Of a stretch of DNA of 64,000 nt, positions 11,562-52,600 are shown in pieces (the first letter of the stretch is position 1; the number at the start of each line of letters is the position of its first letter). The notes under the pieces were generated by a model. The model made no database searches. It was not told the DNA's origin and saw nothing but the letters and a program-made list of their open reading frames with translations. Both the position numbers and the translations under genes were made by a program. Source of the DNA: Quercus robur (Eukaryota; Streptophyta; Magnoliopsida; Fagales; Fagaceae). The DNA is taken from assembly GCF_932294415.1 (NCBI RefSeq), contig NC_065536.1, positions 4,226,974 to 4,290,973 on the forward strand. The letters are read 5' to 3'.

Positions 11562-11614
11562 ATACTAGTCTACTATGATTCTCAAAAAAAAAAAAAAAAA
11601 ATACTAGTCTACTA
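11562..11614 (+). mobile_element. Tail-only retroposon insertion (25 bp) with 14-bp TSD
   Basis: The direct repeat ATACTAGTCTACTA (11562-11575 and 11601-11614) brackets an insert of TGATTCTC followed by a run of A. The insert is essentially a poly(A) tail with a few bases of 3' end, as left by LINE-type target-primed reverse transcription that stopped at once. Confidence 0.75.
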
Positions 11615-11769
11615 CTAAGATGGTATATACATAAAAATAGAAGCTTTTCCCTACAATTAAAATGGTGCTACCATGTAGGAAAATTGCTCATTTAAAATTC
11701 TGCCACTTGTAAGTTAAAAAGCGATAAATTATGTTGTTTGGCAATGTTACAACACCGTTTAAAAGCCTC

Positions 11770-11801
<32 letters not shown>

Positions 11802-12502
11802 TATACATATAAAAGAAGAGACCTCATTTTGAAGAGTATGAGGTTGTGCCATGTGACGCATTCCTTGAAATTTTCTTTATTTAGTTTTCTACCTCAACAA
11901 AGTTTGCATCTATATTAAAGTATTAGTTCATTGAATTAGCCAATAGAGTAAATACATATATTAATTATCTATTTTTGTGCATTAATTATTTATAATAAAT
12001 GAATTTATATGATTATTTTTATAAACTCTTTATAGAAAGTAATTTTTAGTTAGAATAATAATAATAAATTTGAAATATGACATTCTTACTCATTTTTAGT
12101 TGCTTTGACAAAAATTGTCACAAAAGCTATAAAAAAAATTAAATATTTGTGAATTCACTAAAATTAATCTTAATCCTCTAAATTCTCTAACTTATTTGTG
12201 TGTGTGTGTGTGTGCGTGTGTGTGTGTATGTGTGCACACGCGTGTATGTGTGTGTATAGAACTACCATTGCAGAATGTATTCTATGTGTGCGTTTATTTT
12301 TTTCTATTAATTATTTTAAGCATAATAAAATTTTAATATCATTTTTCTAAGATTTATATGAGAAACAATTGGTTTTTTTCTGTGAGAAACAATTGATTTG
12401 AAATATGGCATTTTTACTCAAATTTAGTTGTTTTTGCAACAATTGAAACCATGTCCAACAAAAAGGGGAAAAACTTTAGTAACACAAAATCAAGAATGTA
12501 GA

Positions 12503-12538
<36 letters not shown>

Positions 12539-12890
12539 TGAAGGATATATGCATTTTTTAGTAGGCATGAAACATGCCTATCTATATTAGCTACTATATC
12601 ATGCAATTTTTTTATTTGTAAGCACATATATATAGTATGATCAAATCATTATACAACTCTTAGTGTATTTCTATTTTGTCAATATATAAAATAACTAAAG
12701 ATTACAATTTTTTACAATGAAATTTATTGAAATATCTTATTTATACATCGATAGTTAGGGGTGGAGATCTGAATCCTGTATGTTTCTATTGGAAATTAAG
12801 GTGTCAATCAATTAAGTTACAAGATTTTTGGTAAAATTTATTGAAATATTGTAGAAAACTAATAATAAATTGCACCACACATCGTGCAGG
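11615..12890. other. AT-rich intergenic DNA with microsatellites
   Basis: No gene is seen. (TTA)n lies at 11768-11802, a mixed (GT)n tract with CGTGTG interruptions at 12198-12256, and (AAT)n at 12505-12538. GAGAAACAATTG is repeated at 12360 and 12385 on either side of a short T tract, which may be another, weaker tail-only insertion. Confidence 0.5.
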
Positions 12891-14250: not shown

Positions 14251-16160
14251 AGTTTTAAATAAAGTCAATTTTATGAGTTTCTAAATCTATGATGTGGTCA
14301 ATCTTGTCCAAAAAAAAAAACTTGTCATGTCTAGAATGAAGAGGATTATTTTTCAATTCATTACCCTTTTTTTTTGCCTACCACATAATGGAGTATAATT
14401 CAATAGTTACAATGGAGTCTTGATATTTTAAAGATATCTCAATTGAAACACCAAGAAGTATTTGTTGAGAAATAAGACTATTCGCAATGTAATCAAAATT
14501 TATCATTTTAATAAATTATAAATAAACAAAAATTGTGTATTTTTTCTTAAAAATATTAAAAGTTAATAGTACTATTAAAAAAAAGTATTATCAATTATAT
14601 TACAAAGAGCTTGTAAGAAGATCTAGTATGCAATTATTATGGGCTTAATTAAGAGAAAGAAAAATAAGTAAATGATTGGAACAAAATTATCATTTGCTTA
14701 AGAAAATGGATGGGAATGGTTGCTCACCTAACTATCGCACATATAACAGTTTGTGATTTCAATGGTTATTGATGTCTATATCTACATTTACAGAATTGAT
14801 TTATGAAGATGGAATCTGGGTATTGGTTATTTACATTCACGTATGTAAGGAGATCATGGCATGTCAGGCTTTCTGATGCTAGATATCAAATTTGTTGTGA
14901 TCGGGCTGCATTGCTCTTTGAATCTATTAGGAGATGAAAGTTCTTTACTAGTAATAGGAAAGATCATATCAAATGTTCAAAATATGCTAAAGAGTAATAT
15001 GAACTAATGTCACAAAAACATTAATAAGTTTTTATTGAATTAAAGTAATAGGAAATTAAGAGGATTTTTAAAAAAAAAAAAAAAATCTAAAGAGGATAAA
15101 GAAATAGAGCATGTCATAAAAATCAGTTGAAGTAATGAATTCATCATATAAAAAAATACTAAAATATGTTGTTATTAGGATTTGAACTCTAATGCTAACT
15201 CATTAAATGAGACAGATTCATTAAATTAAATACGTGTTTTCTTTGACTTTTTTTTTTTTTTTTTTGAGAAACATGTTTTCTTTGACTTTTGGAAACTAAG
15301 AACTGAAACCGTCTTTTGAATGTTTTCAATTTCCTTCACAAATTGAGTTTTGAGAACAGTTTTTGTTTTCTGATCATTTTGAGTTGCCAAACAAGTTTTT
15401 TAGTTTCAAAAATATAAAATTGTTTTTTAAAACAAAAAATAAGAGGAAAAAACAGTTGCCAAACATACCCTAAGTTTTTCACTTGGGCCTACAATTTTTT
15501 TTTAAACTTGAAATTGAAGAGAAAAGAGGTGAGAAAATGAGATTGTGAAGAAAAATACACAACTATCTCTATTTTTCATTTTCTACTTTTAATAATAAGG
15601 ATATAATAATAATTTACACGCATGATTTTCTCTCTACCAAGTACCAAGCACACATGATGAAAAACACACGTACTTTGATTTTCTATCATCCTAATTTTAA
15701 ATTCTCTCAGCTGTTCCTATCCTTCCACTTTTTTAACTACTTTATATTGATTTACTAGTTAGTTTGGTTTAGTAGGAGTTCCAAATGTACTAGCTGGTTC
15801 TTGCAATAAAGAAAGCAATTAACTAATGAATGGATTTTCCTCATGTGAAGGCACCAACTCATGCTTCTCCAGGAAAGCCACCCACTTATGCACCATCGTT
15901 CTCACTGATGAAAAAAGGGGGTACAAATCATATATGCCTTTCTTGTTAGAATAATGGTTATTGGTTGAATGCAACAATTCCTCTTAGTTTAAATTTTAAC
16001 AAGAAGTGATTATTTATCATAGTAAAAATAATGTATTTTAAGCTCAAATTCTATAATTTAAACTTTTGGGACAAGCAATAATTTATCATTTCCTGATTAT
16101 ACAAAAACTGAACATAATACTTTTGAGATATATATATATATATATTTCAGTGCGCGGTGT
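14250..16160. other. AT-rich intergenic DNA
   Basis: Apart from the tail-only insertion at 15235 I see no gene. An A tract at 15069-15085 and a (TA)n tract at 16128-16146 are present. Confidence 0.5.
15235..15290 (-). mobile_element. Tail-only retroposon insertion (22 bp) with 17-bp TSD
   Basis: TGTTTTCTTTGACTTTT occurs at 15235-15251 and 15274-15290. The 22 bp between them read, on the minus strand, TGTTTCTC followed only by A. The GTTTCTC-poly(A) junction is the same as in the insertions at 38980 and 47518. Confidence 0.8.
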
Positions 16161-20884: not shown

Positions 20885-22495
20885 TTGCTACACAATATGA
20901 GGATGGAATCGTCAAATGTGAAAAAAAAAAGTGAGGGAACCATCCAATGTAACAAAAGAACTGTTACATGTGACAAAAATAGAGTAGATGCGATGTTGGT
21001 ACTGCTTAATATGACAATGGAACCATCAAATTTGAGAAAAAAAAAAATAAAAGAACCATTATATGTGACAAAAAAAAAAATTGTCAAATGTAATATTGGA
21101 ACTGCGCAATGCGATAATGGAACTGTCAAATGTGAAGAAAAAAAATAAGGAAACCATCAAATGTTACAAAAGAATTGTTAAATGCGATGTTGGAACTGTA
21201 CAATGTGAGGATGAAATCATCAAATGTGAGAAAAGAACTGTCACATGTGATATTGGTACTGCGTAATATAAGGATAGTACCATAAAATGTGAGAAAAAAA
21301 TAAGGGAACCATCAAATGTAACAAAAGTACAGTCACATGTGATGTTGGTACTACGCAACGTGAGGATAGTACCGTCAAATGTGAGAAAAAATAAATAAAG
21401 AAACCACCGAATATGATAAAAATGCAGTCACATGTGATCTTGGTACTACGAAATGTGAGGATGGTACCATAAAATGTGAGAAAAAAAATAAGGGAACCAT
21501 CGAATGTGACAAAAGTACAGTCACATGTGATGTTGGTATTGCGCAATATGAGGATAGTACAATCAAATGTGAGAAAAAAATAAAGAAACCACCGAATGTG
21601 ACAAAAATACAGTCACATGTGATGTTGGTACTGCACAAAGTGAGGATGATACCATCAAATGTGAGGAAAAAATAAGGGAACTACCGAATGTGACAAAAGT
21701 ACAGTTACATGTGATGTTAGTACTACACAATGTGAGAATGGTACCATAAAATGTGAGAAAAAAATAAGGGAACTACCGAATGTGACAAAAATACAGTCAC
21801 ATGTAATCTTCGTACTATGTAATGTGAGGATGGTACCATCAAATGTGAGAAAAAAAAATAAGGAAACCACTGAATGTGATAAAAGTACAGTCACATGTGA
21901 TGTTGGTACTGCATAATGTGAGGATGGTACCATCAAATGTGAGAAAAAATAATAGAATCACCGAATGTGACAAAAGTACAGTCACATGTGATGTTAGTAC
22001 TGCGCAATGTGAAGATGGTACCATCAAATGTGAGAAAAAATAAAAGAACCACCAAATGTGACAAAAATGCAGTCACATGTGATCTTGGTACTACGTAATG
22101 TGAGGATGGTACCATAAAATGTAAGAAAAAAAATAAGGGAACAACTGAATGTGAAAAAAATACAGTCACATGTGATGTTGGTACTGCACAATGTGAGAAT
22201 GGTACTATCAAATATGAAAAAAAATAAAGGAACCACTGAATGTGACAAAAGTACAGTCACATGTGATGTTGGTACTGCGCAATGTGAGGATGGTACCATC
22301 AAATGTGTGAAAAAAAAAAAAGGAAATCACCGAATATGACAAAAGTACAGTCACATGTGATGTTGGTATTGCACAATGTGAGGATGGTACAATCAAATGT
22401 GAAAAAAAATAAGTAAACTACCAAATGTGACAAAAGTACGGTTATATGTGATGTTAGTACTACACAATGTGAGAAAAGTACCATCAAATGTGATG
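20885..22495. repeat. Satellite-like tandem array, about 93-bp monomer, 17 copies
   Basis: The landmark GATGTTGGTACTGCGC and its variants recur 17 times between 20991 and 22450, mostly 89-99 bp apart (one interval is about 62). Each monomer has four sub-blocks beginning AATGTGA or ACATGTGA: one with GGATGGTACCATC, one with an A tract, one with CAAAAGTACAGTC and one with GTTGGTACTGC. This implies an older, shorter unit of about 23 bp. Indels are mostly in the A tract. Minus-strand open stretches here are by-products of the repeat. Confidence 0.93.
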
Positions 22496-30051: not shown

Positions 30052-30117
30052 GCAGGCACTTCAAAATTATCAAAAAAAAAAAAAAGAAAAAAAAGAAAAA
30101 GAAAAGAGCAGGCACTT
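30052..30117 (+). mobile_element. Tail-only retroposon insertion (44 bp) with 11-bp TSD
   Basis: GCAGGCACTTC at 30052-30062 and 30107-30117 brackets an A-rich insert with G interruptions (AAAATTATC, then A and AAAAG tracts). It is the same type as the other tail-only insertions, with a different junction sequence. Confidence 0.65.
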
Positions 30118-31295
30118 CGGATTGTAGGATTGCCAATAGGGCCAAAAGGCTCTGCAGTAAAAAGGATAAATGTAGGTCTTTCCTTGCTCAATTACTTGTA
30201 AATATAATGGCATGATATGATTATTGTTGTTAGATTTTGAAATCCTATGATGTATATTACTTGTATTAGTTTGACTCAAGTGTTATGATGCATGTAAAAA
30301 TTAGATGTATCGACATAATTTGACTAAGGGATTCAGTTTTAATTGTCTCAAATTTTAACATACTTTGACATTTGTTCCATTGTGGAATGAAATAGCAGGC
30401 GTCATGTTGTTGAAATGTAGACTCTTGTTCCATTATGGATTCAGTTTCAATGGCAAAACATTGCATGCAAGTTACAACTTACAATACATGTCTTGATGAC
30501 TTTTTCGATTTTTATTTGTGTGAATACAGGTTAGTGTGGCTTTGGCCTTTGACTTTGTGCAAACATTTCTTTGTTTTTGCCCATGTGTTCATTACTTTAC
30601 ACAAATAGAAGTGTCCACGTGTTTGTGGTCATTCTACTGATAGATACCTATGATTCTCTCTCACCAAATTCTTGGCTTAAAGGTGGTGGTGACATTCTCT
30701 GGCTTAAGTTACATGATTTCAGGCAAAGATTTAGCAACTTAGATCATGGTGAGGACTGAGGAGGGTTAAATTAATACTAGCAACATTATATTTTAAAATA
30801 ATTATATTGAAAGATATTGTTTTAATTAATGAATTGAAAAGAAGAAAAAAATTGAAAGGAAAGACATAGACAAGAAATCAATACCATCAATTCAGATTTT
30901 TCTTTTTCTTTTTCTTTTTTTAATAAAATTTTTATGTTTTATACCATCAATTTTTTAACTAGGTGGACATAAATCCTATATGAAACGCAAAGTATGTCTA
31001 TGTATACTGAATTATTTGCCCCATTTTAGTGACTAGTTGGTTGTCAAAACATTAAAATGCTCATTTAAGGGTTTCACGTGTTTGACAAACCTCTTAATGT
31101 GAAAAGGAAGTTGGATATCTGAGAGTAGGTTGAGTGTTGGGCGGACCATTGGGGGCAAAGAGAAACACTTATTTGGTCATAAAAGCAGTCAGTCGGTGAA
31201 AAGGGGTACTAAAATGTATTTGTTTTTGAGAGAGAGAGAGAGAGAGATTATACATCAAAAAGTAAAGGAAATGCCGTATCCTAACAATTTTTTAG
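30118..31295. other. Non-coding, with one tail-only insertion
   Basis: ATACCATCAATT at 30881-30892 and 30941-30952 brackets 48 bp of T- and CTTTTT-rich sequence, which is a poly(A)-type tail on the minus strand. (GA)n lies at 31229-31247. No gene is seen. Confidence 0.5.
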
Positions 31296-35693: not shown

Positions 35694-36638
35694 CTATGAA
35701 GCACGGGTGCGTTTCGAGACTCGGGTGCGGGTGCGGATACGGGTGCGGGACTCGGCAATTTTTGAAAAAGATGGGTGCGGGTGCGGCAGGACTCGGCAAT
35801 TAAAAAATTATTAAAAATATTTTTATTTATATTTTTTATTTATTTTTACTATTAAAATATTCTTAAAAAACACATTAGATTCACAAAACAAAGAAAGAAG
35901 AAAGCAAAAAACACAAAACAAAAAAGAAATGTCCTACCCTCTCACCTAATCATGCCATATCAGATCATGCACTATATCCATCTCAACCAACACATGTACA
36001 TTAAGGTAAAATGACCAAAACAGCCACATGACTTTGGGTGCATCTGGGGACCCAATAGAATACAAAGCAAAGGGCATTTTGGGGTAATCAAAGATTTTTA
36101 TATTGCAACTCTGTCACGGGCCAACAGAGGAGCATTTGTGTTTTTTTTTTTTTTTTTTTTTTTTGGAGAAGCCAGCCCGGAAGACCAGGCAGGAAAGTAG
36201 CATTTGTGTTGGGTTGCTGTGGAGATGCCGAGACGGAGAGCAGAGACAGAGAGGCAGATGAAGCTGAGCACACGCACACTGCAGAGAGCACAGAGAAGAG
36301 AGACGAGTGACAGAGTGAGAGAGAGTGTTTGAATTTCGGCCTGAATCGGCCGTTTCGGCCTGAACCGGCCATTTCGCCGATTTCGGCCGATACGGCGCGA
36401 ATCTGGTCGAGTCTCAGCCGGATCGGCGCGAATCGGGCCGAGTCTCAGCCGCATCGGCGCGATTTGGGTCGAGTCTCAGCCGCGTCGGCGCGAGTCGGCG
36501 AAAAAAAAAAGAAACCACGTGGCAGACGCGGCCCGACGCGGCACCGACGCGCGGTCAGCGGCGTCCCTCCCGCGTCGCCGCGTCGCACCGCGTCGGACGC
36601 GGGTGCGGCGCCTCTGGAGCCGCGTCCGTGCATCCCAG
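35694..36638. mobile_element. hAT-like DNA element, GC-rich right arm, 8-bp TSD
   Basis: CTAATAAA is duplicated at 35686-35693 and 36639-36646; unit B has a single copy (CCAATAAA) at the empty site near 50330. The terminal inverted repeats are CTATGAAGCACGGGTGCG and, from the right, CTGGGATGCACGGACGCG. The 945-bp element has no transposase. Its right third (36330-36638) is a CpG-dense block containing about four 32-33-bp tandem units with GTCGAGTCTCAGCCG, in sharp contrast to the AT-rich surroundings. Confidence 0.85.
36131..36210 (-). mobile_element. Short retroposon insertion (56 bp) with 12-bp TSD
   Basis: AGCATTTGTGTT at 36131-36142 and 36199-36210 brackets a T tract and 30-odd bases of unique sequence, so on the minus strand a unique stub ends in TTCTCC and a poly(A) tail. 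It lies inside the hAT-like element and therefore post-dates it. Confidence 0.75.
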
Positions 36639-38380: not shown

Positions 38381-39524
38381 GACATGAGTGCTCAATCCAT
38401 AGCACTAGCGGCTCCACGTTGAGTCAAAGGTGATCATGACCACCTGACTTGGAAAACAAAATAATTATTATATAAAAATTAATTTTTGTATCCTTAAAAA
38501 ATATTTGGGTTCATTCTAATTTTTTTTAGGCTCAATATAATTACACTTTGAAAAAAAATTGGCAACAAACTTGGTTGTAAATTAAGACTACAACTTCACT
38601 CAATATTATTTTTATTGGATGTGAATTTTGACAAATCCACCATTGAATTATATTTTCTTCTTATATTCTTCATACTTGCAAAATTTCAAAAAAAAATTAA
38701 ATATCAATAATTATGTCATGAATCAAATCTTCAAATTTCAAGTTTTTGTAGTTTAAAATTATACATAAAAAATAAGTTTATGGATAAAATAGTAAATAAT
38801 ATCCGATTAACATGTATTTTAAGAACATAAAGAACATGCAATTCAAAATTTAGATTTTCAAAATATATAGTAATGTTAATTTTTTTAGTGAGAGTAACCT
38901 TAGGCTACAACTTAGTCTGTAGCTAAACTTTTCCATAAATTTTGATGCGTTTAACAATATATTAGGTCCTTACAAACAAACAGTTTCTCAAAAAAAAAAA
39001 GGTCCTTACAAACAAGAGAAAAAGCCCAAGAAAATTTTTATCAAACTAAAATTTTGAAAAAGATGTAACTTAAAGTATTGATAATGAGACTATCATGCAA
39101 ATATTTCAAAATAAGAAAATTAGAAAAGGAAATTGTAAAACTTTATATATTTGTATGTGTGTGTGTGTGTGTTCTTATTTATTTTGTTTTATTTTTTTTG
39201 GGTCAATATATGAATTTTTAATTTTATGAAATTTTGTATAATTTAAGTTTTTTCATGACTACCCTAGAAAACATTCGTGAGCATGATTTCTCTCCAATGA
39301 GTGCAAGCTCTTAACTAATAAATTAATAAATACATGGACATGATATCTAGATATAAATGAAAAAAAAAGTATTTGTTATACTATATTAGAATTAATATTT
39401 CACTCATCATCTTGTGATAGACCTGAGCAGTAAAAGAAATAATAAAAAAGAATAAGTAAATGAAGTTGTAAAATAATAGAGTCCTTGATACTAAGTGTAT
39501 TATAAAGTAAGGTGTTCTCATATG
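38381..39524. other. Duplicon A non-coding block, with tail-only insertion
   Basis: Collinear with 54255-55385. The direct repeat GGTCCTTACAAACAA (38965-38979 and 39001-39015) brackets ACAGTTTCTC plus poly(A), a 21-bp tail-only insertion. Unit B has the same structure near 54855-54900, so this event came before the duplication. Part of the block (38520-38940) recurs inverted at 4840-5240. Confidence 0.75.
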
Positions 39525-39529
39525 ATAAT

Positions 39530-40294
39530 TGTAGGGACACAAAATCTTTAACGGCTCAACAACGATGTTGGGCTCGCACACGGAAAGTCCCTCACAATAA
39601 TATTTGTAGAGAGTGGGCTTGAAAGGCCAGCGTTGGATCATAGGGCGACGTTTCGGGCCGGACTATAGGTGAACCAATATGAGAAAGAGCTTTGGGCTGG
39701 ATATTCAGGCCCTTCAATCTTGTATCTAGGAGGATTTGGCTCCTCGGATCATGTCCGAGGAGCGATGGTGCTGTCTCCGGTTACCCGTCGGTGGGTTTTT
39801 AGGTGGTGTCCGGCGTATATTATCCAGGCATTCTCTTTCATCAAGTCTTTCTCAAGAAGCTAGATGGGAGACCCCCCCCCCCCCCTTTTGGTCACATAAC
39901 ATTCTCTTTTATACTAGCCTACGTTCGTTGTCCTTCGTCCACGTGTAGGGTCGATCTTTCTAGGACAGATATCTGTCCCATCAGTCTAATCCCAAAATTG
40001 CTGGAGATGATCCATAAAGCCTAAGATCCCGGCTCTGTTAGGGGAAGTGTCATGTCAGGGAAGGGTATTAAAGACAACTTCCCCAGGATATTTTATGATC
40101 TTTCTAGCTTACTCGTGTTCCATTCCTATCCATGGGGTTTTGGACCTGCCGAGGACGAAACCGTCCTCGGCTGTGTCTTCGGGCCACTTTTTATGTCTCC
40201 TAGTTTCGAGCTTGGGCCCTGGCCTCCTTCAGTTTAGGACCGGTGGGCTTCCCATAAGTGCGTGGGCCGGACCCATAAACTATTGGACCCCACA
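39530..40294 (-). repeat. LARD LTR (3' LTR in element sense)
   Basis: It is almost identical to 45009-45770. It contains a 14-C run (39872-39885), against 11 C in the other LTR, which explains the 3-bp length difference. Confidence 0.95.
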
Positions 40295-40306
40295 TTAGCC
40301 CCTCAA
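40295..40306 (-). promoter_or_regulatory. LARD polypurine tract
   Basis: On the minus strand TTTGAGGGGCTAA directly precedes the 3' LTR start TGTGGGG, as expected for the plus-strand primer of reverse transcription. Confidence 0.7.
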
Positions 40307-40648
40307 AATCCTGCTGTCCAACGTCATGGTAGGACAGGTGGATTTTGATGATGTCAAGCCCTTATTGCCGTTCACTTTCTTCGGATCTTGATCAACACTG
40401 GCGACTCTTCCCCTCCCCAAGGAACGTACCGGTCTACGAGCCGTTTTTCCTGGATTTGCGTACGTTGCCGTTATGCCGCGTGGTTATCTGTAGCGTGTCT
40501 TTAATATCTTCCCATTTACGAGACCTCCCAGATATAACGGTTATTGATGGCGTGGGAGAACGAAGCGGCGCGTGAGAACGAAGCGGCGCGTTATACTCTG
40601 GATTTCCCTGGGGATCTAAGTGCGTTACATACCCTCTTCTTCGTCCCC

Positions 40649-41380
40649 TATATAAAGAGAGAAGACAGAGGGGGACTTTTTCATATCCGAATCCCTCACG
40701 CTCTTCCCAGAATCCACTTCCTCCATCTGGTTACTCCCTATTCAATAATACCTCTCTCATAGTAATCCCTCATGAACAAATCCTTCCTTTCCTAGAAACG
40801 CCATGTCCTAACAAAACTCGAGATGGCTCGGTCGGGGCAAGGATGGCGGAGACTTAAGATTTGCCTCCCCATTCTTTTAGCCAAAATCCGAAGCAGGGAC
40901 TCGTCACACCCCAATTCTGGTGTGACTGAGTCGAAAACCTCCCTTGTCATCTCCATCTGCTCTCTCATGAGCATACCTAATATGGCTCCCCTTCTCCCTC
41001 TTTTGCTCCTTTTACTTTCTTTTCATTGCTTCCCTCTTCTTCTCCTCCTTCCTACTCATGTCCTCCATCTTCTTTTTCCCTTGCTTTCTTCAGCGACAAG
41101 AGTTTGCTGAAGTGCTTCCATGTGTTCCAATTCGTCTTCCTTCTCCTTCATTATTTTTGTATAAGGTTCTTCTCCTGATATGAGCAGTACTGAGGCATAG
41201 ATTTCAGAAAGACTTTGAAGGCGAGTTCAGAAGACACCTGATGGTTTACTTATTTGTGTTACGGATGTTGTTACTGTTTTAGCAGTTCATTTTTTGTATA
41301 GGCTTGTTTAAGCCCTTCCTTGTACGTTGTAACAATTTTTCATATTAATAAAAGTTAGTATTACTCTATTTCGTATGTCT
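40649..41380 (+). other. Antisense transcription-like module 1 inside the LARD
   Basis: A strong TATATAAAG box (40649) on the strand opposite to the element is followed by a leader, a short open stretch with KICLPILLAKIRSR (about 40855-40900) and an end with AATAAAAG near 41345. A second, diverged version lies at 42377-43010 and shares CTTTTAG.CAAAATCCGAAGCAGG (40875; 42634). Some plant gypsy lineages carry an extra antisense ORF with its own promoter near the 3' end. This could be the remains of one, but I recognise no protein family. Confidence 0.4.
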
Positions 41381-41744
41381 TGTTTATATATTCTAACAAA
41401 TGTGAAAGCGCTGCTCGGCATAATAGTATAGCATTTGAATCAATAATAACTAAGGCCAAAGTAATCGTTGATAAAAAGATGCCACGATAACTTTAACAAA
41501 ATTATTATTCAACATAACAATCCGACCAGTGAGGAATGAGACTTATCTTAAAATTAGCCGTGATGGGTGTTAAATGCTCGATAAGGTGTAAGAAGTAGTT
41601 ATCCGAGGACATGTTACCCACCGGATGAATGGCCTCCTTAGGTTGACGATCATTAGGTTATTCTGCCATCTCCATGATACGCGAGCCTTAACCTTTTCTA
41701 GTGTTTAAGCCGAGAAATTTCTTCATTCGGGCAGTTGATTTCCC

Positions 41745-42090
41745 AAGAAGCCTGAGTCCGAGGACTTTGCAAAACCTGGGTTTTGTTCAGGACTTATGCG
41801 TTTTATCTTATGTACTTGATTTTTCCCTTAGGCTTGAGTCCGAGACTTGTGTCTTTATCGGTACTTGGTTTTCCCTTTTAGCTTGAGTCCGAGGACCATG
41901 CAAGCCTTAGGTTCTGTCCAAGACCAATGTCTGCATCAGTACTTGGTTTTCCCTTTTAGCTTGAGTCCGAGGATCATGCAAGCCTTAGGTTCTGTCCAAG
42001 ACCAATGTCTGCATCAGTACTTGGTTTTCCCTTTTAGCTTGAGTCCGAGGATCATGCAAGCCTTAGGTTCTGTCCAAGACTTTGAGTTCA
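41745..42090. repeat. Tandem repeat, 78-bp unit, in LARD
   Basis: GCTTGAGTCCGAGGA recurs at about 41880, 41958 and 42036 with an exact 78-bp period, preceded by two diverged units at about 41750 and 41830. The unit is related to the 81-bp array at 43321 (shared TACTTGGTTT, GAGTCCGAGGACCATGCAAG and TTCTGTCCA). Confidence 0.85.
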
Positions 42091-42376
42091 GATTTTCCCT
42101 TTCATTGAGCATTTCCCGAGGTGCCAAACAGGGTGTCCCTGGACCTTCACGCAAAGCGGGCTTGGGCCGCGAACTCTATGAATCCGCGGATTAAGAGATA
42201 TTTCTGCAACCTCTGGCCACGCAGTACTTCTCTGACGCCCCAAGGATCGAGGCGCGCCTTTACGAGGCTCCTTGAGTCTCTTGGCTGCAGTTGACGTTGG
42301 AAGTTGAGCCAAGACTACTTTGTCTGTAGTGCTCCTTGGGACGCCGCGTGAGTTGACTGCCATTACCTTGTCTTTT

Positions 42377-43010
42377 CAAATAAATAGGAGGGAGAGAGGG
42401 TTGCTTTATATCTACACCCATCCTTTTATTTTTCTCTCACATCACGCTTCCCATATCCGGAGTTCTCCTTTCTTGGCATAACATGTTGAAAGCGAGGGTT
42501 GGGAAGAAAGAACTTTCTCCGCCGCAGAAGCGCCGTGTCCTCATGAGGCTTATAACAGTAAGGTATGGGCACAGGAAGCACAAGTTCAGGAGAGTACTCC
42601 ATCTCCTCCGAGGGGGAACGGCGTCTCTTCCTCTTTTAGTCAAAATCCGAAGCAGGCTCTGTTCATGCCGGCACTTTGGTATGTCAGAAGAAAGATTCTC
42701 CGCCATCAGCGCCTCTGCTTAGCAGCAGGCGAATATTTAGAGAAAGCCCCTCAGTTTCCCACTCCCTGCACCTTTCCTTCAACGGTGCCAGGCTCAAGTT
42801 GGGTTTCTTTGGCTGCCTGAGTTATGGGCATGTAGGAGCGCGGGGGAAGAATAAGGTCTCGGAGCTGTAGCCAACCTTTCCTCCGACATACCTCCTCGGC
42901 TTTCTCCAGCTTTCTTGTATTTTTCTTTTTCTTGCTTATGTAGTAAGCTTTGACGTATGCTGATTCCAGCTTTTCATTGTACGCTGTACTATTTCTTCGT
43001 TGTAATAAAA
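42377..43010 (+). other. Antisense transcription-like module 2 inside the LARD
   Basis: A TATA-like AAATAAATA (42378), a pyrimidine-rich leader, an open stretch from 42483 (MLKARVGKKELSPPQKRRVL, then LPLLVKIRSRLCS) and TTGTAATAAAAATGG at about 43000. It parallels module 1 at 40649, so the interior contains an old internal duplication. Confidence 0.35.
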
Positions 43011-43320
43011 ATGGAAATTGATTTACATGTTTTAAGCGTTGATCTACTGGGCAATACGACTTTGTGAACGAATGTGCTCTATGTATGTGTTGCTTTGAGA
43101 ATATTTAGAGCTAAATAGCCTGAAACGTAATCTAACTCACTCCAACTTATCCAATACTATCAGGCAATATATCGATAATTTATTGTAAATTAAATTTGGG
43201 AGACTAACCGGGATAGCAGTTGAATAATCTGCGATAGGCGCGTGAATACCGTCCAAGGCTGATAATCTCTAAATAATCCATCCGAGCAATCGACTGGGAA
43301 GTAGGGAACTCCGATGGTGC

Positions 43321-44697
43321 TTGTGTACTTGGTTTCTCCATAGGCTTGGGTCCGAGGACCATGCAATGCCTTGGTTCTGTCCATTACTTGTAAGATGTCT
43401 TCTTTGTACTTGGTTTCCCCATAGGCTTGGGTCCGAGGACCATGCAAGGCCTTGGTTCTGTCCATTACTTGTAAGATTTTTTTTTTATACTTGGTTTCCC
43501 CATAGGCTTGGGTCCGAGGACCATGCAAGGCCTTGGTTCTGTCCATTACTTGTAAGATGTCTTCTTTGTACTTGGTTTCCCCACAGGCTTGGGTCCGAGG
43601 ACCATGCAAGGCCTTGGTTCTGTCCATTACTTGTAAGATTTCTTTTTTGTACTTGGTTTCCCCATAGGCTTGGGTCCGAGGACCATGCAAGGCCTTGGTT
43701 CTGTCCATTACTTGTAAGATTTCTTCTTTGTACTTGGTTTCCCCATAGGCTTGGGTCCGAGGACCATGCAAGGCCTTGGTTCTGTCCATTACTTGTAAGA
43801 TTTCTTCTTTGTACTTGGTTTCCCCATAGGCTTGGGTCCGAGGACCATGCAAGGCCTTGGTTCTGTCCATTACTTGTAAGATTTCTTCTTTGTACTTGGT
43901 TTCCCCATAGGCTTGGGTCCGAAGACCATGCAAGGCCTTGGTTCTGTCCATTACTTGTAAGATTTCTTCTTTGTACTTGGTTTCCCCATAGGCTTGGGTC
44001 CGAGGACCATGCAAGGCCTTGGTTCTGTCCATTACTTGTAAGATTTCTTCTTTGTACTTGGTTTCCCCATAGGCTTGGGTCCGAGAACCATGCAAGGCCT
44101 TGGTTCTGTCCATTACTTGTAAGATTTCTTCTTTGTACTTGGTTTCCCCATAGGCTTGGGTCCGAGGACCATGCAAGGCCTTGGTTCTGTCCATTACTTG
44201 TAAGATTTCTTCTTTGTACTTGGTTTCCCCATAGGCTTGGGTCCGAGGACCATGCAAGGCCTTGGTTCTGTCCATTACTTGTAAGATTTCTTTTTTGTAC
44301 TTGGTTTCCCCATAGGCTTGGGTCTGAGGACCATGCAAGGCCTTGGTTCTATCCATTACTTGTAAGATTTCTTCTTTGTACTTGGTTTCCCCATAGGCTT
44401 GGGTCCGAGGACCATGCAAGGCCTTGATTCTGTCCATTACTTGTAAGATTTCTTTTTTGTACTTGGTTTCCCCATAGGCTTGGGTCCGAGGACCATGCAA
44501 GGCCTTGGTTCTGTCCATTACTTGTAAGATTTCTTCTTTGTACTTGGTTTCCCCATAGGCTTGGGTCCGAGGACCATGCAAGGCCTTGGTTCTGTCCATT
44601 ACTTGTAAGATTTCTTCTTTGTACTTGGTTTCCCCATAGGCTTGGGTCCGAGGACCATGCAAGGCCTTGGTTCTGTCCATTACTTGTAAGATGTCTT
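43321..44697. repeat. 81-bp tandem array, 17 units, open on both strands
   Basis: The landmark GGCTTGGGTCCGAGG recurs 17 times from 43343 to 44640. First to last spans exactly 16 x 81 bases, and units differ only by substitutions. As 81 is divisible by three and no stop falls in the unit, the minus strand is open for 496 codons (43190-44680, a 27-residue repeat with MDRTKALHGPRTQAYGETKY) and the plus strand for 368 codons (43321-44427, repeat with TWFPHRLGSEDHARPWFCPL). I do not regard either as proven coding. Confidence 0.95.
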
Positions 44698-44784
44698 CTT
44701 TTTTTAAAGTAGTCTTTTCTCTATACTGATTTATTTTTCGAAGGTCAGCCCCTAGGCCAGGGAGGGAGGAGTTGGCTCGAGGCC

Positions 44785-44876
44785 GTAAGCCCCTAGAGCT
44801 GTCCGCTCCGTTGGCAGTGCAAGGCGTAGCCCCTGGAGCTGTCCGCTCCGTTGGCAGTGCAAGGCGTAGCCCCTAG
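44785..44876. repeat. 44-bp direct repeat beside the LARD primer-binding site
   Basis: AGCCCCTAGAGCTGTCCGCT and AGCCCCTGGAGCTGTCCGCT begin two adjacent 44-bp units, both ending GGCAGTGCAAGGCGT. They lie in the leader between the primer-binding site and the 81-bp array. Confidence 0.75.
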
Positions 44877-44988
44877 CAGAGGCTTATGGCGGAGCAACAA
44901 CTGTACGTCGCCGGAGATGGGAAAAACTCGTGAACCTCTGCTTGCTGGAGAGCTGACTCATGCGCCACCCATGCCAACGCGCAAGCCT

Positions 44989-45006
44989 TTCCCACAGACG
45001 GCGCCA
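44989..45006 (-). promoter_or_regulatory. LARD primer-binding site
   Basis: Read on the minus strand directly after the LTR and two bases: TTGGCGCCGTCTGTGGGA. This is the common TGGCGCCGT-type tRNA primer site of plant Ty3/gypsy elements, and it fixes the element's orientation. Confidence 0.85.
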
Positions 45007-45008
45007 AT

Positions 45009-45770
45009 TGTAGGGACACAAAATCTTTAACGGCCCAACAACGATGTTGGGCTCGCACACGGAAAGTCCCTCACAATAATATTTGTAGAGAGTGGGCTTG
45101 AAAGGCCAGCGTTGGATCATAGGGCGACGTTTCGAGCCGGACTATAGGTGAACCAATATGAGAAAGAGGTTTGGGCTGGATATTCAGGCCCTTCAATCTT
45201 GTATCTAGGAGGATTTGGCTCCTCGGATCATGTCTGAGGAGCGATGGTGCTGTCTCCGGTTACCCGTCGGTGTGTTTTTAGGTGGTGTCCGGCGTATATT
45301 ATCCAGGCATTCTCTTTCATCAAGTCTTTCTCAAGAAGCTAGATGGGAGACCCCCCCCCCCTTTTGGTCACATAACATTCTCTTTTATACTAGCCTACGT
45401 TCGTTGTCCTTCGTCCACGTGTAGGGTCGATCTTTCCAGGACAGATATCTGTCCCATCAGTCTAATCCCAAAATTGCTGGAGATGATCCATAAAGCCTAA
45501 GATCCCGGCTCTGTTAGGGGCAGTGTCATGTCAGGGAAGGGTATTAAAGACAACTTCCCCAGGATATTTTATGATCTTTCTAGCTTACTCGTGTTCCATT
45601 CCTATCCATGGGGTTTTGGACCTGCCGAGGACGAAACCGTCCTCGGCTGTGTCTTCGGGCCACTTTTTATGTCTCCTAGTTTCGAGCTTGGGCCCTGGCC
45701 TCCTTCAGTTTAGGACCGGTGGGTTTCCCATAAGTGCGTGGGCCGGACCCATAAACTATTGGACCCCACA
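45009..45770 (-). repeat. LARD LTR (5' LTR in element sense)
   Basis: It adjoins the primer-binding site on its left, so it is the 5' LTR on the minus strand. TG and CA termini are present, and the flank is ATAAT. Confidence 0.95.
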
Positions 45771-46439
45771 ATAATAATAATAATAATAATAATATAAGGT
45801 GCTAAAATAGATAATGTAACTTTTTAAATTGTTAAAAGTTAAATTTTTTAGTACATTTTTTATGTTTGACATTGGTTTATAAGTTCAACTTTTAACTTTT
45901 ATGTATAATCTTTTAAAACTTCTTTTTTTTTTTCTTTGTATTTTCTTACTTATTTCAAAAAAAAATTAATACACAAGTATATTTCAGCATATTTTCAACA
46001 AAAAAAGTTTAATCAAGAAGCGAAATTAGTTGTTTGCAAAAGGGCATCCTTGTGAATGACTGATAAATGACTCTCACTTGGTGTGACTATGGACTTGAAG
46101 TAAATATTGAATAGTCTTCAATTTGATTAAGTAGTAGACAAAGACTTAAGGCTCGTTTGGTAAGAGATTTATAGTAACGTTATTTGTATTTTTTAGAAAT
46201 ATGTGTAGGCGAAAAAGTGTGTAAAAAATACATGTAATATTATTTAAATATTGAAAACTATTGTTTAAACAATGATAACAAACGGACCCTTAAAAGTTAA
46301 GACATGGGCACATGTGGAGGACAAATAAAGAGGTAAAAAAAATTATAAAATATTAAAAGATTAAACCTTCTTATTTTTTGAATTAAAAGGATAAATGGGA
46401 TTGCTTTTTTTTTTTTTTAATGGGGCCAAATATAAAGCC

Positions 46440-46620
46440 CAGTTTTTGCTTCTTCCAATTTCTTTTTCTTTTAACGTTCTCTTTACTCTGTACTCTGCAC
46501 ATCTCCCTCTTTTTATCTCTTTCTCGCTTTCCCAATAACTATATTCTATAGCCAGCCAAACACTCTTAGAGGAGCTATCGAGAAAGATAGAGAGATCTCT
46601 CTCCATTCTTATCCCAAGAA
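46440..46620 (+). other. 5' UTR exon of WRN-exonuclease-like copy 2
   Basis: A pyrimidine-rich block conserved with 57100-57278 in unit B ends at a donor (CCCAAGAA|GTGAGT, intron from 46621). The matching acceptor is TTATGTACAG at 47304. Conservation of both splice sites between the two units supports a non-coding first exon. Confidence 0.6.
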
Positions 46621-47452
46621 GTGAGTTTCTCCGTGATCTCTCTCTCTCTCTATTTTGTGTGGTATTTTAGCTTGTGAATTGTTTGAAAATAGAGCTGTAT
46701 GTTGCTCACTTTGCATATCAGTTTCATTTGAAGCATGCATTATGTAGTCAGTTAAACCTCTCTCATGGAAGGGTTTGTTACTCTTTCCAGTAAAATGTTT
46801 GATATCTGCTACAAAATTTGGTTTATAGCATGGGCACGTACTTTTATTTGATGTATACGTAATTGTTTAAAATAGCTTGTGTAAATACTAAATTTCAATC
46901 TTTCACTCTCTACAGCTAGCTTTCCAAAGAATTGAAGTAGTTTTTAGTGCTTGAAATGAAGAAAGATCAAATTTGGTTTTAGTTCTATGATTGATTGGCC
47001 TATCAAATTTGCTACTGTTGACTTGAAAAAGATATTATAATTGCCACCAATTAAAATGATTTATACTTCATGTCAACTTAATTTGCCCCATTGAATTACT
47101 ATTTTTATTGAGCCTGGTTTAGGGATTTTGTTAATTCACCATTTTAAAAAAATTGATATAAAAATGTTAAAAATTGTTAAAAGATTAGGGTTTTTTTTTT
47201 TTTTTTTTTTCCATAAAAGTTTATAAAAATATAGTTTCTAAAACGTTGGCTTAGCGCATCTGTTAAAATTTTCCTTTATTATATGAGTTTCTTTTTATGT
47301 ACAGGCAACACTGGTTTGAACTAGTTCAACATGATGAACTACCACAATCATTCCGATCAAAAATGGGTATGTACGACATTGAAATAGAAGGTGCAAACGT
47401 TAAGGTAAGCATAGTCGATGATCCTGATTTGGTTGATACTAAGATGGATGAG

Positions 47453-47502
47453 GATCTTCATTACTATCTCAAAAAAAATAAAATAAAAAAGATCTTCATT
47501 AC
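47453..47502 (+). mobile_element. Tail-only insertion (26 bp) with 12-bp TSD in pseudogene exon
   Basis: GATCTTCATTAC at 47453-47464 and 47491-47502 brackets TATCTC followed by an A-rich run with two T interruptions. Unit B (58530-58550) shows the uninterrupted sequence. Confidence 0.88.
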
Positions 47503-47503
47503 A

Positions 47504-47553
47504 AACTTCAGAAAGGCGTTTCTCAAAAAAAAAAAAAAAAACTTCAGAAAGGC
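47504..47553 (+). mobile_element. Tail-only insertion (22 bp) with 14-bp TSD in pseudogene exon
   Basis: AACTTCAGAAAGGC at 47504-47517 and 47540-47553 brackets GTTTCTC and a run of 15 A. It lies only two bases from the previous insertion's TSD. Unit B and copy 1 lack it. Confidence 0.9.
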
Positions 47554-48423
47554 AAATTGTTGGACTCGACATTAAGTTTGTCAAAACTGATGGGAATTTA
47601 AATGAAGGTAAGTTTTTGCTTCTTTGTGTTGGGAGTCATTGCTTGATGATCAAATTACCCGACTCGGAGTCCATATCTGATACCCTTGGGCAGTTTCTGT
47701 CTGATGAGACTATTTGTTTTCTGGGTACCGGAATGAGCAACAAAGTTTCAGAGCTAGGCAACTTTTATTTTTGTACACACGGAACAATGTTTGGCAAATT
47801 TAGATTAAGAGTACAACAAAGGCTGTCTGTAAATACAGGTGTTGAAGTAGGCTTTTTGGCTGCTAAAATCCTGAAGAAACCCAATGTTGAGAATTATGGA
47901 TTAGCAGAGTTGGCAGGTGAAGTTGGAATGGATATAAAGGAACCAATTGGTGAATGTCCTGACTGGAATGCTAAGGTGTTCTCACATGAAGAGGTCAAGT
48001 ATGCAGTGCACAATGCCTATACTTCTTATGTTATTGGGAATAAGCTCTTTGATATGCTCTAAGCCTCTAAGGCCATCTTGTCTATGGGTTTGACTGCTTT
48101 AATTCTGTGTTGTTATATTTGTTATATATGCTAATGTTGCATGTGATTTGTGTAATTCGAACTACTTTAATGAAATTTCTGGTTGTGCTCGGTTTGTCCT
48201 AAATCATATATAATAATTTATTCTGCTTCAATCTTCTAATAGAGAAAGGTCTCAAAATTTCTGAGTTAATAATTATTTGTCTTGGGATTTCTCCAAAATT
48301 GTGGAACAATAGAAATCCAACTCAATTGAAATCTTCAATGAGTGTATCGAATCATCATTGATTATCATTTTGACAACTTGAAATTTGAACTTTTTAAAGC
48401 TGGTTTAGCACACAGTAGATTGT

Positions 48424-49520
48424 CAATGTTTGTCTCCTAATCTCTCATATGGACATGCGCAAAACTGAAAGCTCGAAAATATGTTAAAAACACAAGAGTT
48501 GTTTAGACTCCTAAATTAAAGTTACGGTTTGATAAATTTTACACTAACTTAATACTAAATGCAGAAAAGTGTAAATGTGAGTAGATAAACAAACAAGCTA
48601 CTCTAATTCATAATCAAGACAACACAACAGTAAAATGGAATGTAAAAGAGTAGGGAAGAGAGATGTAAACACAAGATAACACGCCGATGTGTTTTCGAAG
48701 AGGAAACCGAAGAACTCGGCGAAAAACCTCTCCGCCGTCCTCCAAGCGGTAATCGATTCACTAGACAATTAGTTGGGATACATGGGTTAGCAAGAGACCC
48801 TCCAAGCCTAATCTGCCCGATATACCTAAGCCCTCCAAGTTCCTACTCTAATAAGGCTTCTCGGAACCATGTCTTGTTTAGCTCTTCGGATCCCGCAACA
48901 AGTACCATATTGCATCTGCCATCCTTGGCTTCTTCCAATACTTCCCAGCAGCACCAAAATATCACTTGACACTCTGAAAGGGTGTGGTAAGTGTTTGGGC
49001 TATCAACCTCTCAATGATATGGAAATGGAGAGGTAGGAGTTGAGGAAAATCCACAAGCAATTGTGTAGAGGGTTGTGGGTATAACAATCTCTAACTCTCA
49101 AGGTTTGTTCTCTCTGAAGTACTCCTCAACATTTGTGGGTATATATAGTATGGGTACAGAAAGTGTGTATCAGATAGCACAGTCTGGCAAAACAGAATGT
49201 TTCGCCGGTGTCTCACGGGAAGACCTTACCCGTGAGATATTGCGAAACACAACTATCTCCATCTGTACTGACTCTTCACATTCCAGTCATGTGCAGGGCA
49301 CATGCATCACTTCGCCAGATTCTAAGTCGCGAGCTACCCGCGAAAACCTCTTCAGTCTTCAACAGCTTGAGTCTTTACACTGTCTCTCTCTATCACACAA
49401 CCCTTACAATTAAATTCCACAATAATATAGGGTACAAAAGATTGAATAAAGTTATAATCAAATTTGGCACGAAATTGAAGCTAACAAAACATATAGTTGT
49501 AAATTACAACTTCACAAAAA
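48424..49520 (-). repeat. LTR-like repeat, copy 1, at the end of unit A
   Basis: Shares GAAGAGGAAACCGAAG, ACCTCTCCGCCG, CCTCCAAGCGGTAA, TTGGGATACATGG and GACCCTCCAAGCCTAATCTG-type phrases with 59409-60555, and ends with AATTTGGCACG as that copy does. It has no internal region. It looks like an old solo LTR read on the minus strand. Divergence from the second copy is much greater than that of the surrounding duplicated sequence. Confidence 0.55.
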
Positions 49521-50240
49521 CAATTTCTCTCTTTCAACATGCCTTCACCATGTACCACTTCACTCAAGGTTAATTAAATTCATTTTTTTTTTTATTATCT
49601 CTTTTTGTTATATTTTATACATAAACTATATATTTGATTCTCTGTACAAAATTAATTTTAATTTTGTTAGTACTAATTCATTGAATTATTGCGTTGAATA
49701 TGTCTTCATTTGAGCAAATTGAGACTAATAGGTGATAACCATAAAGTTGTAATGGACTAATATTACATAAGATAAATTAGATTATATTGTTGAACGCTCT
49801 AACTTTATATCATTTTTACCCCATTTTAATTTTATTTTGTAGATAATGTTTCTTTTATTTGTAAATAGTTTTTAGTTAGAAGTTTATTAAAAAATATCAA
49901 TTTGAATATGATAAATTAGGGAGGGGGGGGGGGAGTAGGAAGAGAGAGAATAGAGAAATATTTTAATATGATAAATTTGTTACTTGGAACATTAAAATAT
50001 AAGATAAAATTTATATGAAAGCTCCAAGAATTCATTAAAATAAAAAATTTAAAAAGAAATGAAAAAAAAAATCATAATGATATCCAGGCTTATGATATAA
50101 CCATTCTAAATTCTTTTTTCTAAATGCATGTCACTTACAAAATTTCACTAAACTACGAATGGAAATATCGCTAAATTACAATACTCATTATCTTTTGTGA
50201 GTTAGGAAAGTAACAATAGACCATTGACATGATAGATTAG
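49520..50240. other. AT-rich spacer between duplicons
   Basis: An 11-G run lies at 49923-49933. No gene or element that I can support. Confidence 0.4.
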
Positions 50241-50739
50241 TATATAACACTGATGTTTTGTGCCAGTTCAAATATCAGCCATATCAAACTTGTTTTGGTT
50301 GTACTGAAGATTATATCAAATTTCGGCCAATAAATGCATACCGGCCAAAATTAGACAAACACTTTCCCTTGTATTTTTTCTTACCTTGACATCAAATATG
50401 TCCCTTATTAGGATCTGACCCCTTTCTCTCCTCTTCTTCTTTTTCTTTGTTTGTTCTCTACTTTTTTCAAATTTTCGACTCTGCATGTGTCTTTGGCATT
50501 GCACCCTTGCATGTTCTCCATCTCTCTCTTACTGTAATTTTTTTTTTTTTTTTTGAGAAAGAAACATCATCAACCTTTATTAAGAAAATCCAGCTAAATC
50601 AACTTGGATGACTGAAAAACATTGTGGTGGAACATTCTCCATCCACACAACTGAGTCTGAGATATGCGCAGCATATCTAGCCAGACTGTTAGCAACCTTA
50701 TTACCTCTCTTAACATGAGAGTAACGTAATTGATTAAAA

Positions 50740-51300
50740 AAACAAGAGCATCAATGTACATCATCTAGCAGTGACCCACAAAAGGACAGCATAGTTTCAA
50801 TCTCATCCGGTGTATAAGCTTGCGAAATTAGTTGCGACAAAGAAGTGATAACCGATCCATCACTGTTGCGAACAACCACAATAACTCCCAAATAGTTCAC
50901 CCCTGAAAAAATTCTTCCATCAAAGTTTACCTTCACCAAAGTTGTCGGTGGAGGATGCCAAAGAGCTCAAGGTTGTGGACGATTGAGCTGAGGATGCTGG
51001 TTGATATTGAGGAACTATGCCAGTCGTTGTTCACACTCTTGAATCATCTGCTGCAGGTTGCAACACGGCAAATACAAGCGGGTCTGACTCCTGTTGGTCC
51101 ATATCGCCCATGCCGTGAATGCAAACAAAACTGGCTATTGGTGATTCTGCATAATCCAAGACAGCAACTCCCTGAAGTCCAGAAACTGTTTGGAAATTTG
51201 GCAAGCCCAGAAATCACTGTTTAGCCACACTGTGTAAAGCAAAGGACACAACCAAATTGCATGGAGGGAATGCTCTTTCGTTTCACAGCCTCTATTTCAG
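50740..51300 (-). pseudogene. LINE ORF2 remnant: zf-RVT linker and RNase H domain
   Basis: On the minus strand about 50751-50945 reads VKVNFDGRIFSGVNYLGVIVVVRNSDGSVI, the start of the RNase H domain (RVT_3) found at the end of plant L1 ORF2, with the first catalytic Asp in NFDG. Upstream, 51000-51300 contains WACQISKQFLDFRELLSWIM and AWAIWTNRNQTRLH-type stretches from the linker. Stops and frameshifts interrupt it. Confidence 0.8.
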
Positions 51301-51487
51301 TGAAGGTCGTCAATGATGGTCCATCGCACCAAATTCTACTTTGTCGGTAGGGATTTTCGGCAAGCAGGCCAAATAAAACTTTTTATCTTATTTAGAACTT
51401 AAGAGTGTCCAAATCCCCATCCAAAGGCTTTTGTCTTGTAGCTCAATTTCCTGCACTATGCAGTCTAGCCTTACTTCATCGGCAAGC

Positions 51488-52600
51488 AGTGGCGACTTTC
51501 AGGGTGTTTCTCAACAAGCATAAATTACACAATTTAATAAAAATGAAAAATTTGTTTCTCACCGTGGTCAAACCGTGACGATGTCATAATTAATCTAATA
51601 ATTAATTAATATGAAAATAAATAAAATAATTATGTAAATTTTAACAATCTTAACAAAAACAATATTTAAAGATATTAAAAATATATCTTGATTAAAGATC
51701 TAGAAGATATTTCTCATAATTTACTACAAAAATTAATAAATGTCCTCTAATTATTTAAGATATTCTGTTAAATTTGTAATTTACTAATATAATTAGCCAA
51801 ACTATTAATCTATTAACCAAACTACTAATATATAAGATATTCTACTCATCCCTAGCATAGAGTTGAAACTATCAATAACATTACATGTATTATATTTATA
51901 TACATTCAAAGGCCTTCAAAAAGTAATATTTATTTCATTAATATATATATATATATATATTAAAGTTTGAAATGGTAGCAGGTATTCAACTATTTTTTTT
52001 GAGAGTAGCAGATATTCAACTAGACTAAAACACATTTTTCAAAACTAAAATACATGTCAAAGTCACATGAAAACAGGTGTGTGGCATTGGAATTTTTTTG
52101 TTTTAAAAAATATAAAATATCTCATCTTTATCTCATCCCACACAATAAGAAACACAAACACGTTGATCTCTTCTGAAGCTGTCTTTCTCCCATCCTCTTT
52201 GTCTCTGTTTCTGTTTTTTTTTTGAGAATCTCACCTCTTAGTCTCTCATACAACAAGTAGATTAGAGCACACATCTCTTCCTCTATAACCTTTCTTCCTA
52301 AGCAAACTGATCTATCAATGGTAGATCTAACATCTATCTAAGGTTTGAGCTTTTGGTGAAGATGAACAAGCCCAGTCACCGGCCATTTTCAGTGAAGATT
52401 TCTGTGTGAGGAACCATGAGAACCGTGAGGTTTGAGCTTTTTTTTAGGGTGTTCTTAATTTTGATTGAGGGTGTTCCCAAATTTTTTTTTTAAGGGTAAA
52501 CAAATAAAAAAATTTTAATTATTATATATAATTTTTTTTTTTTTCAGGTCAGGGTGTTCCTAGGAACACCCTGACCTGAACGTGGCGTCGTGTCTGCAAG
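51488..52600. mobile_element. DNA element nested in the LINE, with 38-bp perfect palindrome
   Basis: It begins CAGTGGCGACTTTCAGGGTG and ends near CGTGGCGTCGTGTCTG, with inverted-repeat resemblance. LINE-like sequence lies on both sides. Positions 52545-52582 are a perfect palindrome centred on CCTAGG, with arms containing CAGGTCAGGGTGTTCC; the same GGGTGTT phrase occurs at the left end. No TSD is certain and no transposase is visible. A tail-only insertion with an 18-bp TSD lies inside at 51975-52022. Confidence 0.6.
51975..52022 (-). mobile_element. Tail-only insertion (12 bp) with 18-bp TSD
   Basis: GTAGCAGGTATTCAACTA (51975-51992) and GTAGCAGATATTCAACTA (52005-52022) differ at one base and bracket only TCTC plus eight A, read on the minus strand. 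It is the smallest of the series. Confidence 0.78.

Follow-up and report, generated by a model that had tools for sequence, protein, structure and literature searches.

Short poly(A) insertions flanked by long direct repeats in the genome of Quercus robur: probable products of LINE-type retroposition

Insertions of L1-type long interspersed nuclear elements (LINEs) that are truncated at the 5' end carry a poly(A) tail directly behind the 3' end of the element, are flanked by target-site duplications (TSDs), arise at T-rich nick sites (with a preference for TTTT/AA), and come in a broad range of lengths, as described in the sections of PMC5402677 drawn on here. Short interspersed nuclear elements (SINEs) are made in trans by LINE machinery, and a 3' end common to a LINE and a SINE is a known sign of template recognition (Ohshima 2013, PMC3747384, as far as excerpted here). 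Processed pseudogenes likewise have a polyadenylated template and TSDs. Here we report on a 64-kb stretch of the Quercus robur genome (contig NC_065536.1, positions 4,226,974 to 4,290,973; hereafter "the window"), for which an earlier note, made from the sequence letters, had proposed a recurring class of tail-only retroposon insertions, consisting of a poly(A) tail plus a few bases and each having a long TSD.

Such tail-only inserts do recur, in the window and in a sample of genomic loci. They resemble the 5'-truncated L1-type insertions of the cited sections in their poly(A), in the 3' end adjoining the tail, in TSDs of 9-18 bp, in a T-rich nick context, and in having empty sites. They differ in the body (the bases that precede the tail), which is mostly 3-12 nt long with a peak at 7, as opposed to the broad lengths of the former. 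From processed pseudogenes they differ by keeping no transcript sequence past about 7 nt. We recognized no description of tail-only insertions in the literature, which is weak evidence, subscription papers being mostly outside the search.

The genome comprises 785,749,727 bases in 42 contigs and includes the window; loci of this genome which were compared with the window are referred to by L-numbers (L001 etc.). Nine bracketed inserts had been listed for the window, six of them with a (T)TCTC-A junction. All six were found, in both orientations and with the anatomy claimed for them (Table 1), the 3' poly(A) tail adjoining the 3' copy of the TSD. The A tails of some inserts are impure (47471, 30072). 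Perfect TSDs were also found at 30063 (score 10) and 36143 (score 9), both of which are devoid of TCTC and are weaker cases than the TCTC inserts; the latter cannot strictly be called tail-only. At 30893, a 12-bp direct repeat is present. This site falls outside the scored set because it lacks an A/T run of 8, it was unlisted in a scan of A-runs of at least 7, and its interpretation as a retroposon is not supported. Two features had been overlooked: the copy at 54853-54901 with its TTTCTT-A junction, and a possible decayed insert at 52194-52246.

Table 1. Coordinates of the inserts, of the LINE copy, and of the paralogues that represent empty sites in the window
Feature	Position	Strand	Anatomy and remarks
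Tail-only insert (11576)	11560..11614	+	TSD 16 bp, 16/16, score 12.5; TGATTCTC + A tail + TSD
Tail-only insert (15252)	15235..15290	-	TSD at least 17 bp + (TG)TTTCTC + A tail + TSD; empty in L009
Tail-only insert (38980)	38964..39015	+	TSD 16 bp + ACAGTTTCTC + A tail + TSD
Diverged paralogous copy of the 38964 insert	54853..54901	+	ATAGTTTCTT + A7; TSD 15/16; junction TTTCTT-A
Tail-only insert (47465), in WRN-exonuclease-like coding exon	47453..47502	+	TSD 12 bp + TATCTC + A8TA4TA6 + TSD
Tail-only insert (47518)	47503..47553	+	TSD 15 bp + GTTTCTC + A14 + TSD
Tail-only insert (51993)	51975..52022	-	TSD 18 bp, 1 mismatch; TCTC + A8 + TSD
Possible decayed tail-only insert (52214)	52194..52246	-	TSD 13 bp, 12/13; TGAGATTCTC + A10CAGAAAC; score 4.5, below threshold
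A-rich insert, non-TCTC (30063)	30052..30118	+	TSD 11 bp + AAAATTATC + A14 + G-interrupted A tail
34-nt body insert (36143)	36131..36210	-	Ends GGCTTCTCC + A22; TSD 12 bp; not strictly tail-only
LINE copy	50538..53586	-	3' end GATGTTTCTTTCTC-A17; possible degraded RNase-H-like end; zinc knuckle of open reading frame 1 (ORF1); outer boundary approximate
Paralogue A	6905..7789	+	Empty site for both the 47453 and the 47503 insert
Paralogue C	58221..59225	+	Empty site for both the 47453 and the 47503 insert

The association of A-runs with TSDs was measured by a TSD score (threshold 10 in the window test, with the lower score of 8 also tallied), and flank-swapped pairs served as controls. In the window, TCTC precedes 8 of the 113 A-runs of at least 8 nt (both strands), as compared to 158 of 16,722 single A's and 9 of 1,403 runs of 4-7 A's (0.6-0.9%). 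The test set consisted of 95 of the 113 runs, the other 18 being located in tandem arrays and left out. Six of the eight TCTC runs have a TSD of 12-18 bp (one with a mismatch) at a distance of up to 10 nt. A score of at least 10 is reached by six of the eight TCTC runs versus 2 of the 87 others (Fisher p = 8.7e-7), and both of these other rows represent the single 30063 event; the flank-swapped controls reach this score in 23 of 9,394 cases. The remaining two TCTC runs are the 3' end of the LINE at 50538 and the possible decayed insert 52214, which stays below the threshold. At score 8, five of the 87 non-TCTC rows are retained, namely 30063 (two rows), 36143, 54879 (the paralogue of 38980), and 55937. 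A scan of the window for TSDs around long inserts returned only simple-repeat or unconvincing pairs.

Genome-wide, TTTCTC-A11 occurs at 7,659 places, compared to 490 for the reversed pattern; four of these places are in the window, which is a density above the genome average. The first consecutive TTTCTC-A11 places on contig C1 were taken as the genomic sample (70 sites, of which one at a locus edge was dropped and 69 were scored). When the TSD was sought up to 60 nt from the tail, 29 of the 69 sites reached score 8, compared to 25 of 6,811 swapped pairs, and at score 7 the corresponding numbers are 37 of 69 and 70 of 6,811. Because the TTTCTC-A11 pattern itself fixes six bases, A-runs of at least 9 nt without a preceding TTTCTC were scored separately in L001-L048 and the window (218,273 bases), with body lengths searched up to 80 nt. 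Score 9 was reached by 23 of these 284 runs and by 16 of 9,651 swapped pairs; the 23 rows correspond to 22 events, one event in L014 being represented twice. The excess over controls that the earlier note had called for is thus strong both in the window and in the sampled loci, and its expectation of many such insertions in this genome agrees with the pattern excess and with the TSD excess in the sample. Extrapolation from 16 events with a body of at most 12 nt and without a preceding TTTCTC in the 218,273 bases gives about 58,000 genome-wide, a value to be taken as an order of magnitude only because the sampled flanks are not random.

The length of the body is sharply peaked, an observation which goes beyond the earlier claim. 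In the TTTCTC-A11 sample at score 8, the body measures 5-11 nt in 28 of 29 cases and 26 nt in the remaining one. Among the 22 TTTCTC-independent events, 13 bodies have 6-9 nt and 19 have at most 12 nt, while three are in the range of 13-80 nt and none is as short as 0-2 nt; the 16 matches from swapped controls have body lengths scattered over 7-80 nt. A pooled set of 63 events with a score of at least 8 (enriched for TTTCTC sites, with bodies above 14 nt excluded by selection, shared copies counted separately, and one false call, L038:1614, included) peaks at a body of 7 nt (22 events), and 42 of the 63 bodies have 6-8 nt. Among the 19 short bodies, 15 have an end other than TCTC (examples are GTTGCTC, TTTTACC, ATGGAACC, and TCAGCC), and the class is therefore not limited to one motif. 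The peak at about 7 nt holds across varied bodies (also GATTCTC) and across tails of 9-38 nt, which suggests that either synthesis or the template itself ends at a set distance from the tail.

This distribution bears on three explanations of the short body. The tail-only inserts could be the extreme short end of one continuous length distribution of 5'-truncated LINE and SINE copies, given that target-primed reverse transcription (TPRT) is known for truncating 5' ends and that there are longer copies sharing this 3' end (by best TSD, 238 bp in L002, 89 bp in L003, 62 bp in L012, and 196 bp in L041). However, of the 22 events 13 are at 6-9 nt, none at 0-2 nt, and three at 13-80 nt, and when a geometric law is fitted to the short events (19 in number) it is rejected (p = 3e-6 for 6-9 nt, p = 0.0009 for 0-2 nt), the number of events being small and the geometric law being one null among others. 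We consider this explanation possible but unlikely. Alternatively, the template may have been a distinct, short RNA species with a poly(A) tail, such as a product of decay or cleavage that was shielded next to the tail, in which case the 7-nt body would be the true 5' end and synthesis would have been complete. A peak that is maintained with such varied bodies and tails would be accounted for, whereas a spread of the 5' ends over 3-12 nt rather than a single base would not, and we regard this explanation as rather improbable. Finally, the tail-only inserts may constitute a separate class of LINE-machinery products with a fixed end at about 7 nt, present in tens of thousands by extrapolation from the sample, which would have seeded many of the short A-tracts and 9-18-bp duplications of this genome and now and then added in-frame codons to exons. 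It would be as though the enzyme or a decay complex shielded the tail plus one footprint of body, irrespective of its sequence. In our assessment, the chances for and against such a separate class are about even.

A clean pre-insertion site was found in a paralogue for six events (47465, 47518, 15252, and the inserts in L038, L025, and L034), three of them in the window. An exonuclease-like gene is represented in the window by three paralogous copies, A and C (see Table 1) and B (47127-48237). Copy A is open for 255 aa and matches the PDB chains of EXD2 (E 1e-6) and Werner exonuclease (E 0.00025), while copies B and C are frame-shifted. Inserts 47465 and 47518 are located in copy B and both are missing from copies A and C. 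By itself, the 47518 insert adds 36 bp and is in frame; 47465, whose 5' TSD copy adjoins a net loss of 4 bp compared to the paralogues, amounts to +34 bp versus copy C; jointly, the two add 70 bases compared to copies A and C, and the frame is shifted. They abut exactly: position 47502 is the last base of the first insert's 3' TSD, and the second insert's 5' TSD opens at 47503. When seven events were placed at random, such an abutting pair arose in 62 of 200,000 trials; either a hot spot or a linked double event may account for it.

The 15252 insert is absent from L009, where the joined flanks are 89% identical over 220 nt with a largest gap of 1 base. The L038 insert, with a TSD score of only 4.5, is empty in L047 and in two overlapping pieces on contig C6, the L025 insert is empty in L044, and for the L034 insert the empty copy lies elsewhere in its own locus (73% identity). 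The comparison for L025:3341 was ambiguous, and the remaining events have no paralogue in the DNA that was compared. In three pairs (38980/54854, L009/L017, and one in L024 and L025) the insert is common to both copies, and those inserts therefore predate the duplications. The block holding the 38964 insert and its copy (38377-39529 / 54249-55391) is 81.6% identical. Across 5,113 aligned bases of the paralogous blocks, a survey revealed 22 gaps of at least 8 bases, two of which are the tail-only inserts 47465 and 47518; the repeat measure of this survey is low for 47465 because of the adjoining 4-bp loss.

These comparisons also bear on the possibility that direct repeats present by chance gave rise to the tracts and the duplications through replication slippage or microsatellite expansion, A-tracts being prone to slippage. 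One of our own calls, L038:1614, with a body of 0 nt, recurs as a direct repeat in the dispersed repeat copies L071-L076 and was rejected as an insertion, being an internal repeat of a dispersed element. The earlier note had named slippage without a clean empty site as the observation that would speak against it. At the six sites, however, tract, body, and second repeat are absent together, which indicates insertion and contradicts slippage for these six, and neither the common TCTC junction nor the nick-site bias would be expected from it. We consider slippage extremely improbable.

In the pooled set of 63 events, the TSD is most often 16-17 bp long. Position 1 of the TSD is A in 50 events (p 6e-14) and position 2 is A in 45 (p 5e-10), calculated against an A background of 0.33 and with the A's at the TSD start partly common with the tail. 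The base before the TSD is a pyrimidine in 51 events (p 4e-7). As expected, these contexts fit a T-rich nick on the opposite strand and resemble L1 endonuclease sites. Plant break repair may insert short filler DNA, and the 47465 insert, which adjoins the 4-bp net loss described above, could be viewed as filler captured during non-homologous repair of a staggered break. Filler capture would not give the TCTC-A junction seen in 38 of the 63 events (in a sample enriched for TTTCTC), nor would it give L1-like nick contexts, and it is very improbable as the origin of the inserts.

In our view, the inserts are with high probability TPRT products of an L1-type plant LINE which end about 7 nt into the body. 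An endonuclease, which on the basis of the nick contexts may be L1-type, would cut a target strand at a T-rich position, and the end released in this way would act as a primer on the poly(A) of an RNA. The tail and no more than about 7 nt of the body would be copied by the reverse transcriptase, upon which the 5' junction would be closed. The outcome would be a tail-only insert flanked by TSDs of about 9-18 bp. Most templates in the sample would be RNAs with TCTC before the tail (LINE copies and SINE-like repeats) and a minority would be other polyadenylated 3' ends; the non-TCTC inserts may derive from ordinary mRNA. The short body would mean that synthesis halts, or that a trimmed template ends, at a constant distance from the tail, and between an early enzyme stop and a trimmed template the evidence favours neither.

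Several points weigh against TPRT as the origin. The proposal of abortive LINE or SINE insertions is supported by the TSD excess and by the empty sites, but plain random 5' truncation does not predict the clustering at about 7 nt. At score 7, 32 of the 69 sampled sites are without a short TSD, some of them being longer copies, and score 8 admits the false body-0 call in L038. The support from empty sites comes solely from paralogues of the same genome. None of the tail-only inserts was traced to an intact LINE. For the LINE at 50538, no TSD was found, and it shows an apparent loss of target bases relative to its paralogue. The window inserts probably do not descend directly from it, since the base at position -7 is C in the LINE and G in the five window inserts that are long enough (the doubtful 52224 being counted, and the G of 15252 possibly being target DNA according to the comparison with L009).

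This LINE, for which a 3' end followed by A had been reported at 50536, indeed has the junction GTTTCTTTCTC-A17. The stretch that was read corresponds to the end of ORF1 and to the C-terminal end only. The zinc knuckle of ORF1 was identified as PF14392 (E 8.6e-12), while for the RNase-H-like C-terminal domain PF13456 (RVT_3) was below the cut-off (E 0.018) and single pieces were without match. Roughly 1 kb of DNA not belonging to the LINE interrupts it; this segment contains the 51993 insert as well as the possible insert 52214. The empty site of the LINE is found in the paralogue at about 36850-36875. Bodies reading CTTTCTC, which are compatible with this LINE, occur in 6 of the 29 sampled genomic events. 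A stem-loop just upstream of its tail, which could have halted the enzyme, is not supported (z-scores of -0.29, 1.64, and 1.00 versus shuffles), and a scan of viral contigs with a piece of the LINE yielded no relative.

Related 3' ends are found elsewhere in the genome. L023 and L039 contain LINE copies with the same TTTCTC-A end which are 69-70% identical to the window LINE. The same 3' end is present in L002, which is LINE-like by eye (238-bp body, 12-bp TSD ATATGGAAGGCA), and in L003, which has an 89-bp body, a 17-bp TSD, and a GGTTCGA box. We take this box to be as in tRNA-derived SINEs. A repeat family with varying 5' ends, which is possibly a SINE, ends in or near GTGTGTTTGTTTCTC-A (L010, L011, L012, L041, L047, and L048). 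L053 and L067 are similar to it by eye, and L022 was dropped by eye after alignment. Rfam and tRNA scans of the window returned nothing (gathering thresholds, bacterial settings). The source therefore seems wider than the LINE at 50536: TTTCTC-A ends are found in other LINE-like copies, in a SINE-like copy, and in a repeat family, and in some tail-only inserts other motifs occur before the tail. Many insert bodies agree with the TTTCTC terminus seen in several LINE copies, and with the few bases left no single assignment can be made. The sharing of TTTCTC before the tail by LINE and SINE-like copies is like that of SINEs made in trans, as described in the excerpted parts of PMC3747384. Unlike the maize and sorghum LINE/SINE pairs in the same excerpts, the copies have only about six bases in common, and no stable 3' stem-loop was found in the window LINE.

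The window contains a large old tandem duplication (36638-49487 / 50326-60529) with blocks that are about 78-85% identical and with two of the three exonuclease-like copies inside. An LTR element at 39527-45773 (long terminal repeats of about 770 bp, 98-99% identical, with an apparent 5-bp target duplication ATAAT) is missing from the paralogous block C; it contains a 17-copy array of 81 bp, in which a 496-aa frame stays open. Block C in turn has a 143-bp insertion (57580-57722) which starts with CTAAGGGCCTGTTTG and which, by its look, is presumably a small DNA element. A copia gag domain is also present in the window and, like the LINE with its ORF1 zinc knuckle, probably reflects the plant character of this DNA. 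A degenerate tandem array with units of about 91 bp lies at 20888-22493.

Ordinary repeat masking would probably miss tail-only inserts. If the class is general, many short A-tracts and direct duplications in plants would be retroposition scars overlooked by annotation, and they would provide dense markers that rarely arise twice. Aborted as well as completed LINE events would become countable, and there would be a direct handle on the point at which first-strand synthesis stops. The sharp 7-nt body turns the choice between a stop of the enzyme and an already short template into a testable question.

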